From assembly GCF_900100385.1 (NCBI RefSeq), contig NZ_FNFC01000012.1, positions 1 through 64,000 on the forward strand: 64,000 nt of DNA, given 5' to 3'. The notes beneath the pieces were generated by a model. That model was not told the origin of the DNA and made no database searches. It worked only from the letters and a program-made list of their open reading frames with translations. Made by a program: the position numbers and the translations under genes. Below are positions 4,489 to 61,689 of this stretch, in pieces. Numbering within the stretch: position 1 is the first letter of the stretch; every line of letters begins with the position of its first letter. The DNA is from Halovenus aranensis (lineage in GTDB: Archaea > Halobacteriota > Halobacteria > Halobacteriales > Haloarculaceae).

Positions 4489-5643
4489 ATGCAACTGCGT
4501 TCACCAGGACCGACCGTCGGCATCGTCGGCGGCGGCCAGCTCGGCCGGATGCTCGGCGAAGCCGCCGCGCCGCTGGGTATAGACCTCGTGGTCTCGGACC
4601 CGACACCACAGGCCCCGGCGTCGCCAGTCGCGCGCGACCAGGTCGTCGGCGCGTTCGACGACGAAGCGACCATCCGAGAACTCGCCGAACGGGCAGACTA
4701 TCTCACCTTCGAGATAGAGCTCACGGACCCAGCAGCACTCGAACGTGTCCGCGAGGAGACCGGGACGCCGGTCCACCCGGACCCGGCGACGCTACGGACC
4801 ATCCAAGACAAGCTCGTTCAGAAGCGACGACTGTCCGAAGCTGGCGTGCCGGTGCCGGCCTTCCGCGCAGTCGACTCCGCCACGGAACTCCGGGAGGCCC
4901 TCGACGACCTGGGCTATCCGGCGATGCTCAAGGCCCGGAAAGGCGGCTACGACGGACGCGGGAACGTTCCCGTCGAATCTCCCGAGGACGTAGAGACCGC
5001 GTTCGCGGCAATCGAGGGACCGGCGATGGTCGAGGAGTTCGTCGACTTCGAGCGCGAACTGGCGGTAATGGCCTGCCAGGGAGACGGCGAGGTCGACACC
5101 TTCCCCGTGACAGAGACGATACACGAAGCGGAGATTCTCCGCCAGATGGTCTCACCGCCGCGGACCACGGAAACAGTACGGGAACACGCCACCGAGGTGG
5201 CACTGGAGGTACTCGACGTCCTCGACGGCAGAGGCGTGTTCGGCATCGAGCTGTTCGAGACGGTCGACGGCGAGATTCTGCTCAACGAGATTGCACCGCG
5301 TCCACACAACTCCGGACACTGGACGATAGAGGGCTGTCACACCTCACAGTTCGAACAGCACCTCCGGGCAGTCACCGGACGACCGCTGGGAACGACAGCG
5401 CGGCGGTGTCCGACGGCCTCGGCGAACATTCTCGGCGATGTCGACGACCGTCGGTCTGCCCGGCTGCGTGGCGTCGAGAACGTTCTCGGACGGGAGCGAG
5501 CCGCGTTACACTGGTACGGGAAACAGGAGGTCTATCGCCTCCGAAAGATGGGACACGTCACACTTCCCGGCGAGGACACTGCCAACAGTGCCGCCCTGCT
5601 CGACGACGTCGAGGCGTGTGTGACGCCGCTGACCTTCGATTAA
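4489..5643 (+). CDS. purK: 5-(carboxyamino)imidazole ribonucleotide synthase
   Basis: PurK converts AIR, bicarbonate and ATP to N5-CAIR in purine synthesis. The 384-residue product opens with GIVGGGQLGRML (10-21), the PurK nucleotide-binding start. It has the ATP-grasp lysine and glycine loop KARKGGYDGRG near 146-156 and the metal site LLNEIAPRPHNSGH near 264-277. Length is typical. The promoter region contains GAGGGCAA before the ATG. PurE, its usual downstream partner, is not next to it: the following gene is convergent and unrelated, so purE must be elsewhere. Confidence 0.96.
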   Translation: MQLRSPGPTVGIVGGGQLGRMLGEAAAPLGIDLVVSDPTPQAPASPVARDQVVGAFDDEATIRELAERADYLTFEIELTDPAALERVREETGTPVHPDPATLRTIQDKLVQKRRLSEAGVPVPAFRAVDSATELREALDDLGYPAMLKARKGGYDGRGNVPVESPEDVETAFAAIEGPAMVEEFVDFERELAVMACQGDGEVDTFPVTETIHEAEILRQMVSPPRTTETVREHATEVALEVLDVLDGRGVFGIELFETVDGEILLNEIAPRPHNSGHWTIEGCHTSQFEQHLRAVTGRPLGTTARRCPTASANILGDVDDRRSARLRGVENVLGRERAALHWYGKQEVYRLRKMGHVTLPGEDTANSAALLDDVEACVTPLTFD

Positions 5644-5885
5644 CACTCCTCGAGCAGGTCGTCGATTGTCGCCGACACGTCTCGGTCTTCCTCGAGGCCG
5701 AGTGTCTCCGTGAGCCCGGCGCGTTCGATTTCGTCTTCGAGCTCCCAGGGCGATACCCCTGCCGCCTCGGCAGCCTCGTGGATGCTGGCGTCACTGAGTA
5801 CGAACAGACCGAATGCAGTTGCCAGCTCTGTGTGGACGTCCTCGGGCCGGACTCCGTTCCCCCCAGCAGTGCCGTCGTCAGGCAT
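5640..5885 (-). CDS. Small HTH-like protein of unknown function
   Basis: This is an 81-residue acidic protein. The segment LSDASIHEAAEAAGVSPW followed by ELEDEIERAG looks like a helix-turn-helix of the kind found in small haloarchaeal UPF0175-like proteins, and the end, VSATIDDLLEEC, is helical. No catalytic residues are seen. The stop overlaps the purK stop by four bases, so the two genes are convergent. It stands alone between purK and surE. DNA binding is an inference from the predicted helices. Confidence 0.65.
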   Translation of the reverse strand: MPDDGTAGGNGVRPEDVHTELATAFGLFVLSDASIHEAAEAAGVSPWELEDEIERAGLTETLGLEEDRDVSATIDDLLEEC

Positions 5886-57237: not shown

Positions 57238-58401
57238 ATGACGGAGCAGGTCGTCGTACTCGGGTCCGGGTACGCGGGCGCTGGCGCAGTACGGAGTCTC
57301 GAAGATGAACTCGACGGCGAGGCGGACATCCGCTGGATTTCCGATACGGATTACCACCTCGTCTTGCACGAGTCACACCGCTGTATCAGCGACCCCAACG
57401 TCGCAGACAAGATTACGATTCCTGTCGAGGACATCAAGTCCCCACGGACGGAGTTCGTCCAGGGCAGGGCCGAAGACATCGACGTGGAGGACCGGACGGT
57501 TCACCTCGAAGACGGGAGCGAACACGACTACGATTACCTCCTCGTCGCAGTCGGCTCACAGACAGCCTTCTTCGGCATCGACGGCCTCGAAGAACACGCA
57601 CACACGCTCAAGAGCCTCGACGACGCACTCGCCATTCACGAGGATATCAAAGAAACGGCTCACGAGGCAACCAAGTCCGACCCCGCACAGATTGTCATCG
57701 GCGGGGCGGGTCTCTCTGGTATCCAGACCGCTGGCGAGGTCGCCGAGTTCCGCGACGAGCACAACGCCCCGCTCGACATCCATCTCGTCGAAGGGCTCGA
57801 CGAGATTTTCCCCGGCAACGACGAGAGCATCCAGCAGGCACTTCGGACCCGCCTAGAAGCACGCGACGTGAACATCCTGACCGGCGACTTCATCAGCGAA
57901 GTCGACGAGGAGCGTGCCTACCTCGGCGAAGACGACGAACTCGACTACGACGTACTCGTCTGGACGGGCGGTATCACGGGTCAGGATACCGTTTCAGATA
58001 CCGACGTCGAGAAAGACGACCGCAACCACCGGCTCAACACCGGCATGACCTTCCAGACCTCAGACGAGCGCGTGTTCGCACTCGGCGACTGTGCACTCAT
58101 CGAGCAACACGACGACCCCGCGCCGCCGACCGCACAGGCCGCCTGGCAGGCCGCCGAGGTCGTCGGCGAGAACATCGCCCGCACTATCCACAACCGTCCG
58201 CTCAAAGAGTGGACCTACGACGACAAGGGGACGGTCGTCTCGGTCGGCGAATCCGCCGTTGCCCACGACGTGTCGCTGTTCCCGTTCCTCGATACCTTCG
58301 GCGGCTTCCCGGCGAAGACGCTGAAAAAGGCCATCGCTGCCCGCTGGATTGCCTCGGTGACGGGCGTCGGCACGGCGATGAAGGCCTGGCCCGACATGTA
58401 A
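57238..58401 (+). CDS. NADH dehydrogenase type 2-like flavoprotein
   Basis: This 387-residue FAD/NAD(P) enzyme has the N-terminal FAD motif VVVLGSGYAGAGAV (4-17), the second nucleotide motif IVIGGAGLSGIQTAGE near 153-168, and FALGDCA near 278-284 that binds FAD. The C-terminus (ASVTGVGTAMKAW) is hydrophobic and may sit on the membrane. It resembles NDH-2 enzymes that pass electrons from NADH to quinone. A sulfide:quinone reductase relation is less likely since no conserved Cys pair is seen. Confidence 0.88.
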   Translation: MTEQVVVLGSGYAGAGAVRSLEDELDGEADIRWISDTDYHLVLHESHRCISDPNVADKITIPVEDIKSPRTEFVQGRAEDIDVEDRTVHLEDGSEHDYDYLLVAVGSQTAFFGIDGLEEHAHTLKSLDDALAIHEDIKETAHEATKSDPAQIVIGGAGLSGIQTAGEVAEFRDEHNAPLDIHLVEGLDEIFPGNDESIQQALRTRLEARDVNILTGDFISEVDEERAYLGEDDELDYDVLVWTGGITGQDTVSDTDVEKDDRNHRLNTGMTFQTSDERVFALGDCALIEQHDDPAPPTAQAAWQAAEVVGENIARTIHNRPLKEWTYDDKGTVVSVGESAVAHDVSLFPFLDTFGGFPAKTLKKAIAARWIASVTGVGTAMKAWPDM

Positions 58402-58412
58402 CACAGCCCGGT

Positions 58413-59132
58413 TTACCGCCTCTCACGTCGGTCAGTCAACGAAGCGACGGCCTCGTTCTCTACGTCGACCACCACGGACAGAATACGTTCGTCGGTGGTC
58501 GTGTTCCGAACGTAGACGACTGCCCTCCCGTCAACGTACGACGGGTCGCGGTCGACTCGGACGGCGTCGGACCCGTTCGATGTCGACCCGTAGAGCGTGA
58601 CATCGAACGTCTCGTTTTCGTCGGTAGCGTTGATTGCGGTAGCCAACCCCTCGCTTGCCTGTGCGGTATTTGCTGTGATGTTTGTCATCGTGATATTCAC
58701 GGTGTTCGTTGCCTCGAGTTTGCGAATCGGCTCCACCGTGAGCATATACCCGTCGAGGTCGTCGAGGACACCGGCCACGGTGTCGTTAGCCCGTGCCACG
58801 GCGAGACTGGTGTTGCGCTGGCGGTCGGTCAGTGGGTTGTCCCGGTCGGTTTTGATAACGAACGCGCCGTCTGTTTCCGATATTTCGACCCCGGAGACGT
58901 TTGTCATCCGGTCGACCGCGGTGACCTCCGTGCCGTCGGCACTGACCGTGACGTTATCCTCCGAGACGCGAAACGACGCACCAGGGTCGGGGTCAGTCAG
59001 TCCCGCGGGGAGGCCAACGGCGTGTCCCGCGAGCGCGAGGACGAGACCAAGCGCGAGTAAGGCACCGAGAACGGCCAGACGAGTGCGAGCGCTCGCGGTC
59101 TGGTCGTCCTGCTGGCTGGCCTGTACTTGCAT
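58413..59132 (-). CDS. Membrane-anchored extracytoplasmic protein with PepSY-like repeat unit
   Basis: This 239-residue protein has a single N-terminal transmembrane segment (about 20-40), so the bulk lies outside. The body shows NPLTDRQRNTSLAVARANDT then VAGVLDDLDGYMLTVEP, and later DGRAVVYVRNTTTDERILSVVVDVENEAVASL, a helix-then-hairpin unit of PepSY type that recurs in the protein at 59963-60796. Many N-glycosylation sequons are present. An upstream ATG nine codons earlier is possible. It is divergent from the regulator gene and shares its operator region. Confidence 0.75.
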   Translation of the reverse strand: MQVQASQQDDQTASARTRLAVLGALLALGLVLALAGHAVGLPAGLTDPDPGASFRVSEDNVTVSADGTEVTAVDRMTNVSGVEISETDGAFVIKTDRDNPLTDRQRNTSLAVARANDTVAGVLDDLDGYMLTVEPIRKLEATNTVNITMTNITANTAQASEGLATAINATDENETFDVTLYGSTSNGSDAVRVDRDPSYVDGRAVVYVRNTTTDERILSVVVDVENEAVASLTDRRERR

Positions 59133-59170
59133 CGTCACATCGTTGGGTGAAAGAGCCAAAGAGTGTTGCG

Positions 59171-59208
59171 CTGAAACGCGGTTGAAACGCGTTTCAGGCC
59201 CGTTTCAG
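59171..59208. promoter_or_regulatory. GAAACG operator cluster in a divergent promoter
   Basis: Four half-sites are packed here: CTGAAACG at 59171-59178, the perfect palindrome TGAAACGCGTTTCA at 59183-59196, and CGTTTCAG at 59201-59208, which also pairs with the first. It lies between the exported protein and regulator genes, next to a TCATTTATGA box at 59236-59245 that would serve the regulator. It is a likely binding site for the regulator itself. Confidence 0.65.
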
Positions 59209-59273
59209 GCTGGTTTTCGTCGGAACAAAAGTCGGTCATTTATGACGGAGGCTCACGCATGGACTCCTGTCAG

Positions 59274-59852
59274 ATGCCCTCCCCTCGTCGCAAACGACTC
59301 GTCGCGGCCGTGGTCTTCGTTAGCTCTGTGGTCGTACTCGCAATCCAACTGATAACGCCCTCGCCGGTCGTGGTGACCGCCGGCGAGACTGGCACAGAGG
59401 TCGCAGAACTCGGCGATTATTTCCAGTATCGCGATGTGGCAGTTATCGCAACCGCGGCGTGTACGCTCGGCGCGAGCGGAACCTACCTCCTCGCTGCCGG
59501 TCCCGTCCGGTCGGCATCAGACAGCGCGACGCGAGTCGACAGCGAGCCAACGCCGCCCAGACCAGCGAGCTCGGACGGCGGCGTCGACGAGTCGCCCTCG
59601 CTCGAACCGAGCACCGAGTTACTCGAAGCGCGCAAAGAGGAATGGGAGGAAACCGCCGACCGCCTCGCCAACAAGGAACGCGAGGTCTACGAGGCGCTGC
59701 TCGATGCCGACGGCGTCCTCCCACAGAGTGACATCGTCGAGCGGACGGACCTCTCGAAGGCGTCGGTCAGCCGCGCGCTCGACAGCCTCGAAGTGAAAAA
59801 CCTCGTCGAACGCAAGCGCCGGGGGATGGGTAACGTGATTTTGTTGCAGTGA
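59274..59852 (+). CDS. Membrane-anchored winged-helix transcriptional regulator
   Basis: This 192-residue protein has two N-terminal transmembrane helices (about 8-25 and 55-72) bracketing a short outside loop (SPVVVTAGETGTEV), a charged disordered linker and a C-terminal winged-helix domain (LANKEREVYEALLDADGVLPQ, DLSKASVSRALDSL, RRGMGNVILLQ). The arrangement suggests a one-component sensor that reads the cell surface and binds DNA. An ATG five codons upstream is an alternative. GAAACG palindromes lie on both sides of the gene. Confidence 0.85.
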   Translation: MPSPRRKRLVAAVVFVSSVVVLAIQLITPSPVVVTAGETGTEVAELGDYFQYRDVAVIATAACTLGASGTYLLAAGPVRSASDSATRVDSEPTPPRPASSDGGVDESPSLEPSTELLEARKEEWEETADRLANKEREVYEALLDADGVLPQSDIVERTDLSKASVSRALDSLEVKNLVERKRRGMGNVILLQ

Positions 59853-59854
59853 AA

Positions 59855-59868
59855 CCGTTTCGAAACGG
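59855..59868. promoter_or_regulatory. Palindrome CCGTTTCGAAACGG between regulator and exported protein gene
   Basis: This perfect 14-base palindrome contains two facing copies of the CGTTTC/GAAACG half-site found in front of the regulator. It begins three bases after the regulator stop and precedes the next exported protein gene by 95 bases, so it could control that gene. Confidence 0.6.
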
Positions 59869-59962
59869 GTTGTGTCGGCGTTTCCAACGGGTCCTCAAGG
59901 GGGCTTTCATTCAAGAGTAGCCTGGAGCCACGGTCCCCCGTGACCGTACTCCGGTGATACCG

Positions 59963-60796
59963 ATGAATACGAAGTTACACACAGTTGTTGCCGCCGCCGT
60001 CCTTGCGCTGGCGCTCAGTGCGGGCGGCGTCGCTGCGGCCGACCACGTGTACAGTCACTCGGCGGACTCCGCCGACGAACTACCCGAGGAGTACGACCTG
60101 ACAGTCATCGACCCCGACGACCGCCTGACCGACGGCCAAGCCGAGATGGCTCTCGAACTCGCCTGGAGTCACGACGACATACAAGAGGAGTTCGACGAGA
60201 GCGAGTCCTGCGACGTGACCGTCCAGGCGACCGGCGAGGACGTGACCGTCGTCATCAAGGGCGACGCTGGCGAGGCCGCGAGTGCTGACCTCGACCTCGA
60301 CAGCGAGACGGTGAAGTCGGTCCTCCCGACCGAGCAAATCGGGACCGCAGACGAGAGCAAGTCGATAGCGATTGGAGTCGACGGCAACGAGACCGAGGTC
60401 GAGGTCCTCGTGCTGCCGCTGGCAGACGCCTCAGTCGAGGTCGTCGACGAGAACGACGTCCTCACAGGCGACGAAAGTCGGCTCACGGGCCTGCTCGCGA
60501 GTAACGCGGCGGTGAACGACCACGTCACTGACCTGCTCGACCGCGAGAACGAGAGCGGCGTCGCGGAGTGGACTGCGACGGTCAGCGAGGTCGACGACAG
60601 CATCTTCGTCGACGGCGAGGACGCCGTCGCCGTCGAACTCAGCTACGACGGGACCGAGGACGCCGTCAAGGCCTTCGTCGACCTCGACGACGAGGAAGTC
60701 ACCCGAGTCGTTCCTGTGCAGACGCTCGACGCCACCGAATCCGTCGGAATCGACAGCGACGATGTCGAGATTGTCGACGACGAGAGCGACGAGTAG
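59963..60796 (+). CDS. Exported protein with two PepSY-like repeats
   Basis: This 277-residue protein has a clear signal peptide (NTKLHTVVAAAVLALALSAG, cleavage near AAA-DH). The mature chain has two copies of one unit: the first starts VIDPDDRLTDGQAEMALELA, the second VVDENDVLTGDESRLTGLLA; each continues through a D-x-V-type strand to SETVKSVLP or DEEVTRVVP. The composition is very acidic and there is no anchor, so it should be secreted. It lies downstream of the regulator behind a GAAACG palindrome. The ATG was chosen over a GTG three codons earlier. Confidence 0.78.
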   Translation: MNTKLHTVVAAAVLALALSAGGVAAADHVYSHSADSADELPEEYDLTVIDPDDRLTDGQAEMALELAWSHDDIQEEFDESESCDVTVQATGEDVTVVIKGDAGEAASADLDLDSETVKSVLPTEQIGTADESKSIAIGVDGNETEVEVLVLPLADASVEVVDENDVLTGDESRLTGLLASNAAVNDHVTDLLDRENESGVAEWTATVSEVDDSIFVDGEDAVAVELSYDGTEDAVKAFVDLDDEEVTRVVPVQTLDATESVGIDSDDVEIVDDESDE

Positions 60797-60840: not shown

Positions 60841-61689
60841 TTAGAGTCCAAGCATCGCGTGCCAGGCGTCTGCGCCCGCCTCGTCGACGCGGTCGTCCAT
60901 CTCGGCGAGCAGCGAGACAGCCTTGCTCGCGGTCTTTGCGGCCTTGCTCTCGCCGGTGACCTGGAACTCGCCGGTCGTCCGGTCGGCATAAACCGTACAG
61001 ACCGCACCCGCTCGGAGGCCGTAAATCTGTGCCAGCGTGAGAATCGCGCTCGCTTCCATTTCGAAGTTGAGCACGCCGGCCTCGCGGAGTTCCTCGATTT
61101 TGTCGTCTGCGTCACGAGCGAGAAAGCCCTGGAACCCCTCGCGGCTCTGGCCGGCATAGAAGCTGTCGGTACTCGCGGTCAGGCCGACGTGGTAGTCGTA
61201 TCCCAGTTCGTCGGCGGCCGCGGCGAGCGCCGCAACGACGGCGTGGTCGGCGACGGCGGGGTACTCCTCGCGGACGTACTCCTTGCTCGTGCCCTCCTGT
61301 CGGACCGCGCCGCTCGTGATAATGAGGTCACCCACGTCGGTCTCCTCCTGAATCGCGCCACAGGAGCCCACCCGGATGAGCGTATCTGCGCCGACGCGTG
61401 CGAGTTCCTCGACCGCGATTGCGCTGGAGGGTGCGCCGATACCCGTCGACGTGACAGAGATGGGCGTCTCGTCGTAGGTCCCGGTCGCCGTCCGGTACTC
61501 GCGGTGGTCGGCGACGACGTCGTGGTCGTCCCAGCAGTCGGTGATTTTCGCGACTCGCTCGGGGTTGCCTGGTAGGAGGACACCCTCGGCTACGTCGCCT
61601 TCTGTGACTTCGAGGTGGTACTGTTCGTCGGTCTGTGGGTCCTCGCTGCCGTGTACTGTACTCGCATCGTCGCTGTTGTCTGTTGTCAT
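60841..61689 (-). CDS. udp: Uridine phosphorylase-type nucleoside phosphorylase
   Basis: This 282-residue enzyme cleaves nucleosides with phosphate to a base and ribose 1-phosphate. It has LLPGNPERVAKI near 38-49, TSTGIGAPSSAIAVEEL near 79-95, RVGSCGAIQ near 106-114 and NFEMEASAILTLA with the ribose-binding Glu-Met-Glu. It is of the NP-I hexameric family. The gene is downstream of cdd with a four-base overlap. Together they turn cytidine into uracil and ribose 1-phosphate, the latter a source of carbon. Confidence 0.94.
   Translation of the reverse strand: MTTDNSDDASTVHGSEDPQTDEQYHLEVTEGDVAEGVLLPGNPERVAKITDCWDDHDVVADHREYRTATGTYDETPISVTSTGIGAPSSAIAVEELARVGADTLIRVGSCGAIQEETDVGDLIITSGAVRQEGTSKEYVREEYPAVADHAVVAALAAAADELGYDYHVGLTASTDSFYAGQSREGFQGFLARDADDKIEELREAGVLNFEMEASAILTLAQIYGLRAGAVCTVYADRTTGEFQVTGESKAAKTASKAVSLLAEMDDRVDEAGADAWHAMLGL

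Follow-up and report, generated by a model that had tools for sequence, protein, structure and literature searches.

Three genes, here called A, R and B, form a module of about 2.5 kb in the window (the whole 64,000-nucleotide stretch of Halovenus aranensis DNA that was analysed), flanked by genes for a pyridine-nucleotide-disulphide oxidoreductase (57238-58401) and a nucleoside phosphorylase (60841-61689) (Table 1). The open reading frames and hydropathy place R between two genes for exported-type proteins, the N-termini of A and B both being hydrophobic and of the signal or anchor type. An earlier note on this DNA had described R as a regulator with two transmembrane (TM) helices and a C-terminal winged helix, and hydropathy and domain matches agree: a Pfam search matched the winged helix to DUF7343 (E 1.4e-12) and MarR_2 (E 3.5e-9), R belongs to DUF7343 (PF24034) with 47.7 bits against a curated cut-off of 27.6, and DUF7343 was matched at E <= 0.1 in 26 of 26 R homologues. 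R combines a TM region and a DNA-binding domain in one chain, with a topology taken from hydropathy alone (KD mean 2.8 for the first N-terminal hydrophobic segment and about 1.6 for the second, summed by hand). Its outer loop is short and conserved in the alignment of 26 homologues (VVVSxGExGT...YFxY), and the linker between the TM helices and the winged helix is probably disordered. R is a predicted one-component transmembrane transcription regulator, its putative DNA binding and regulatory role being read through the operator.

Table 1 Features of the A-R-B module, with nucleotide positions in the window or residue numbers in the proteins.
Feature	Position	Strand	Description	Basis
A	58413-59132	minus	Upstream extension to TTG at 59159 possible	ORF
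A promoter block	59143..59170	minus	TATA-like box then CTTTCACCCAA; resembles element preceding B
Left operator array	59173..59206		GAAAC-N6-GAAAC-GC-GTTTC-N6-GTTTC, 11-bp period	Sequence, array counts
TATA-like box of R	59236..59248	plus	Putative, by likeness to haloarchaeal promoters	Read from sequence
R	59274-59852	plus	Alternative upstream start 59259	ORF
Second operator, R-B spacer	59851..59884		GAAACcGTTTCGAAAC ... GTTTC; spacings looser in relatives	Sequence
B promoter block	59880..59908	plus	GTTTCCAACGGGTCCTCAAGGGGGCTTTC	Matching block upstream of B in 38/39
B	59963-60796	plus	Alternative upstream start 59954	ORF
R layout	Residues ~9-29, ~53-73 (TM helices); 133-191 (winged helix)		Two TM helices, short outer loop, linker, helix and DUF7343/MarR-type winged helix	Pfam, 26-homologue alignment
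A architecture			One predicted PepSY/cystatin-like unit: beta-helix-beta, insert, three strands	AlphaFold2 model, B profile match
B architecture	Model residues 44-121 (unit 1); ~155-245 (unit 2)		Predicted PepSY/cystatin-like unit 1, weaker unit 2	AlphaFold2 model

Of 146 genomes of the same family, which we take to be Haloarculaceae (with Haloarcula, Halorientalis and Halosimplex), 38 were found to have R, 28 A and 15 B; single-sequence search misses A at some loci, and those copies were recovered by position. R was not found in other genomes of the window's genus, so the module is patchy. The 43 loci of a named scan were nearly all haloarchaeal (Natrinema, Halorubrum, Haloferax mucosum, Natrialba, Halorussus and Halostella among them). 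In all, 62 distinct R loci from at least five haloarchaeal families remained once duplicates were removed, bearing out the synteny that the earlier note had proposed to test. Two gene orders account for most of these loci: in order 1 (40 of 62) A is divergent from R, usually followed by B, and in order 2 (21 of 62) a gene A' is codirectional with R, most such loci having a divergent gene for an exported protein, C, upstream (A' and C were both delimited in 17). A was missing from its expected place at one of the 62 R loci, and a tree of the 62 R proteins showed strong clustering of gene order with few changes. Because the genes beyond the trio vary between loci, the trio is the conserved unit. 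Apparent module remnants were seen at L120 (genome G048, about 5635-5766), where 43 residues of the R C-terminus are still open and a short A match lies nearby, and at L124 (G100), with a short A fragment without R. In genome G078, contig C83 carries a piece with A' and R, C60 has a module of the divergent type, and C38 has another, partly broken one (L187) that comprises C, an operator array and an A' open reading frame diverging at its end.

The earlier note had also pointed to GAAACG palindromes in the spacers on both sides of R. Half-sites are indeed present in both, as GAAAC at 59173 and 59184 and GTTTC at 59191 and 59202 on the left, and at 59851, 59857, 59862 and 59880 on the right, but the left site is an array phased at 11 bp rather than an isolated palindrome. 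The first right-hand half-site (59851-59855) overlaps the stop codon of R (TGAAAC). Across 41 divergent-type loci the left spacer contained 4.1 half-sites per 230 nt, compared with 0.80 in shuffles and 0.35 in control windows, and neighbouring half-sites lay at 11 bp in the same orientation (64 cases: RR 45, FF 19) or at 7 bp when converging (FR, 24 cases), far above other distances. At order-2 loci the array again lies between divergent promoters, those of C and A' (FF at 11 bp 22 times, RR at 11 bp 14 times and FR at 7 bp 17 times), and was not found in the A'-R spacer. A strict form of the array, searched as GAAAC-N2-GTTTC-N6-GTTTC, was present in 28 of 38 R-positive and 0 of 108 R-negative genomes of the family (Fisher 5.7e-22, a value that ignores genome kinship and overstates the evidence), and the backwards control pattern had 0 matches. 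Every strict match lay at a locus of the module; one outlier proved to be a second, partial module. In this genome the pattern occurs in the left spacer only, once per strand. The strict array is specific to the module; 10 R-positive genomes lack it, and several arrays are degenerate. A wider regulon in this genome was rejected as a candidate, as GAAACNNGTTTC occurs at two other places but without the flanking repeat.

The promoters of B (38 of 39) and C have in common an element of roughly the form TTTCCAAY-N7-TATG-N-GG-N-CTTTC, the core of which, GG-N1-2-TTTC, lies upstream of 24 of 41 A genes compared with 3.1 expected. The commonest distance from the promoter GG to the nearest GTTTC half-site was 21 bp for A (11 cases), B (10) and C (10); it is not universal, being 32-33 bp, one turn more, in some, and B operators are variable in spacing. 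Such constant phasing on the helix, close upstream of the TATA-like region, would suit an activator that recruits transcription, and the module-tied array together with the 21-bp spacing before A, B and C suggests that R controls A and B directly and probably activates them.

A and B matched no family in Pfam or NCBIfam. Profile-profile comparison bore out the proposal that both exported proteins are built on one LTDxQ helix followed by a strand pair, the helix part aligning between the A and B profiles at E 4e-7 and, beyond an insert in A, the strand pair at E 4e-5, with the order of the two parts unchanged, compared with E 0.2 for a reversed B profile. C is related to B (hhalign, E 2.8e-7) and matched A weakly when compared directly (E 0.003, probability 10%), so that the beta-helix-sheet unit we define here for the A/B/C family was recognised through the A-B and B-C profile matches. 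By the earlier note's own account, dissimilar flanking proteins, or the loss of synteny and palindromes in relatives, would have spoken against its reading, and neither was encountered. The second, weaker unit of the window's B matched the B profile at E 0.0015. B varies in length and sequence among loci and may have a different job; a search of the genome contigs with B alone returned nothing because B diverges fast, whereas family-level whole-genome searches did find it. At L083, L085 and L125 B is longer, at 335-343 aa, and its additional N-terminal stretch is perhaps another copy of the unit.

The predicted fold agrees with the profile matches. AlphaFold2 models show an identical order of strands (E) and helices (H) in A (E90-97, H103-115, H117-125, E129-137, insert, E199-210, E216-223, E228-234) and B (E44-49, H57-68, H71-74, E83-90, E93-100, E105-111, E116-121), with pLDDT mostly >85 in the units and about 85-98 over the folded region of A. 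In structure comparison the nearest matches of the A and B units were copper amine oxidase N-terminal domains at Z about 8, with an overall range of 5.5-8.5 in which, as the tool cautions, a match may mean no more than a shared arrangement. The B unit was also near designed cystatin folds, and further matches were UipA (7ath, Z 6.3), YpeB (5boi, Z 6.0 and 6.9), vibriolysin propeptide (3nqz, Z 5.9) and YpmB (2gu3, Z 5.5). We take the YpeB, YpmB and vibriolysin propeptide structures to be of PepSY type. For UipA, this assignment is also indicated by the reference list of PMC12714742. Comparison with PepSY, which the earlier note had proposed, failed at the level of sequence: the window's A and B had no match to PF03413 at E <= 1, PepSY did not appear among the 25 families reported for 42 A and 28 B proteins, and hhalign to haloarchaeal PepSY domains gave E 0.004 (probability 9%) for A and E 0.014 (probability 3%) for B. 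A PDB sequence search with the A and B profiles gave nothing relevant, and Foldseek alone gave neither protein a match below E 0.001. Classification of A and B as PepSY by sequence was rejected on the Pfam and profile comparisons; because these failed, the predicted fold is called PepSY/cystatin-like, a likeness of fold only, and the proteins are not filed as PepSY. A true PepSY protein with two PepSY domains is encoded elsewhere in the same genome (G000:C42:174135-174584).

With slightly more confidence than doubt, we read the module as a self-contained, portable one-component circuit in which, we infer, R binds the array and activates A and B, and A and B modulate R in return. Two helices would hold R in the membrane and the winged helix would reach the DNA, where several R subunits could occupy one face, on GAAAC half-sites that repeat with each helical turn, and, stationed at a constant position close upstream of the TATA-like element, could bring the transcription machinery to A and B; in order 2, C, the homologue of B, would take the place of B as target. 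On the outer side A (anchored) and B (exported) would present their PepSY/cystatin-like units, most likely contacting the outer loop or helices of R, or each other, and setting the activity of R as feedback and input; they would thereby sense or relay conditions outside the cell. That A and B may feed back on R is suggested by analogy with bacteria, in which PepSY proteins partner sensor kinases (DbfQ-DbfRS). The 'surface sensing' put forward in the earlier note is supported no further than by the predicted exported location of A and B. We hold more tentatively the view that the module would be an archaeal one-component counterpart of bacterial PepSY-sensor modules, with paired exported subunits of one fold for input or feedback, a membrane-tethered activator and a phased operator that serves its own module only.

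These data could be read in other ways. The array might be bound by a different, global factor, R being merely a neighbour, and the literature search did find no binding data for R; however, the strict array is confined to R genomes (28/28 versus 0/108) and to the module, which it follows through two gene orders, making this explanation highly improbable. If R does bind, it could act as a repressor of A and B that is released by a signal, as winged helices of the MarR type often act as repressors and the GTTTC half-site at 59880 abuts the B promoter block. Activation fits better with half-sites that lie upstream of the TATA-like element, mostly 21 bp (about two turns) from the anchor in three promoters, rather than across the start site, and we regard repression as unlikely.

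A further question is whether A and B act on R at all. R might sense through its own TM helices and loop, leaving A and B simply as effectors at the output end, such as surface-binding or protease-inhibiting proteins, with no feedback, and regulated A and B promoters would fit this equally well. TM regulators often have no separate sensory domain (PMC10269533 and general knowledge), and the loop of R is short yet conserved. The occurrence of A at nearly every R locus and the unit common to A and B, however, look more like partners than arbitrary outputs, so that a self-sensing R appears somewhat unlikely, and the circuit with feedback remains our preferred reading.

The claim that the system is undescribed stands for the module as a whole, of which the literature search found no description, and needs to be limited where its ingredients are concerned, since TM regulators (PMC10269533), the ToxR-ToxS pair (PMC7496328) and the PepSY-sensor neighbours DbfQRS (PMC12714742) are known. 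TM-anchored regulators are already a known kind, of which the R/A/B module is a variant with no description found: TM transcription regulators are widespread, at about four per archaeal genome on average (PMC10269533), ArnR and ArnR1 are archaeal examples (PMC6396743), and ToxR works with its partner ToxS (PMC7496328). R resembles ToxR, CadC and ArnR/ArnR1 in having its DNA-binding domain held in the membrane (PMC10269533, PMC6396743), and differs in its two N-terminal TM helices, near lack of an ectodomain, C-terminal DUF7343 and two partners of one common fold. DbfQ binds the sensory domain of DbfS, and gene neighbourhoods of PepSY and sensor kinase are >60-fold enriched (PMC12714742). As in the R module, the gene for a small exported protein, there a PepSY protein that modulates the sensor, adjoins that of the membrane sensor, and relatives have two such proteins or divergent genes at some loci (PMC12714742); the R module, in contrast, is archaeal, has a one-component winged helix and no kinase, and its exported units are not PepSY by sequence. 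YycH and YycI likewise act as membrane-bound accessories in tuning the membrane sensor WalK, which is a bacterial histidine kinase (PMC7355866). The winged-helix regulator CsmR of Haloferax volcanii has a different site (TATCA-N4-TGATA). Archaea have many membrane-anchored DNA-binding proteins, very few of which have a signal, partner or site established. In the module a regulator comes with a sharply defined operator, two putative target promoters that share their geometry and two candidate external partners with the same fold, and it could show how a signal passes across the haloarchaeal membrane without a kinase.

A close parallel within haloarchaea is provided by DUF7345-TM-DUF7343 proteins, one of which is encoded in the same genome (L002:1459-2700). 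A common origin of A/B/C with the DUF7345 ectodomain was rejected, as no similarity was found to the single DUF7345 sequence compared. These proteins have a membrane-anchored DUF7343 winged helix like that of R, with the ectodomain fused in one chain, and R therefore looks like a version in which the ectodomains are separate proteins.
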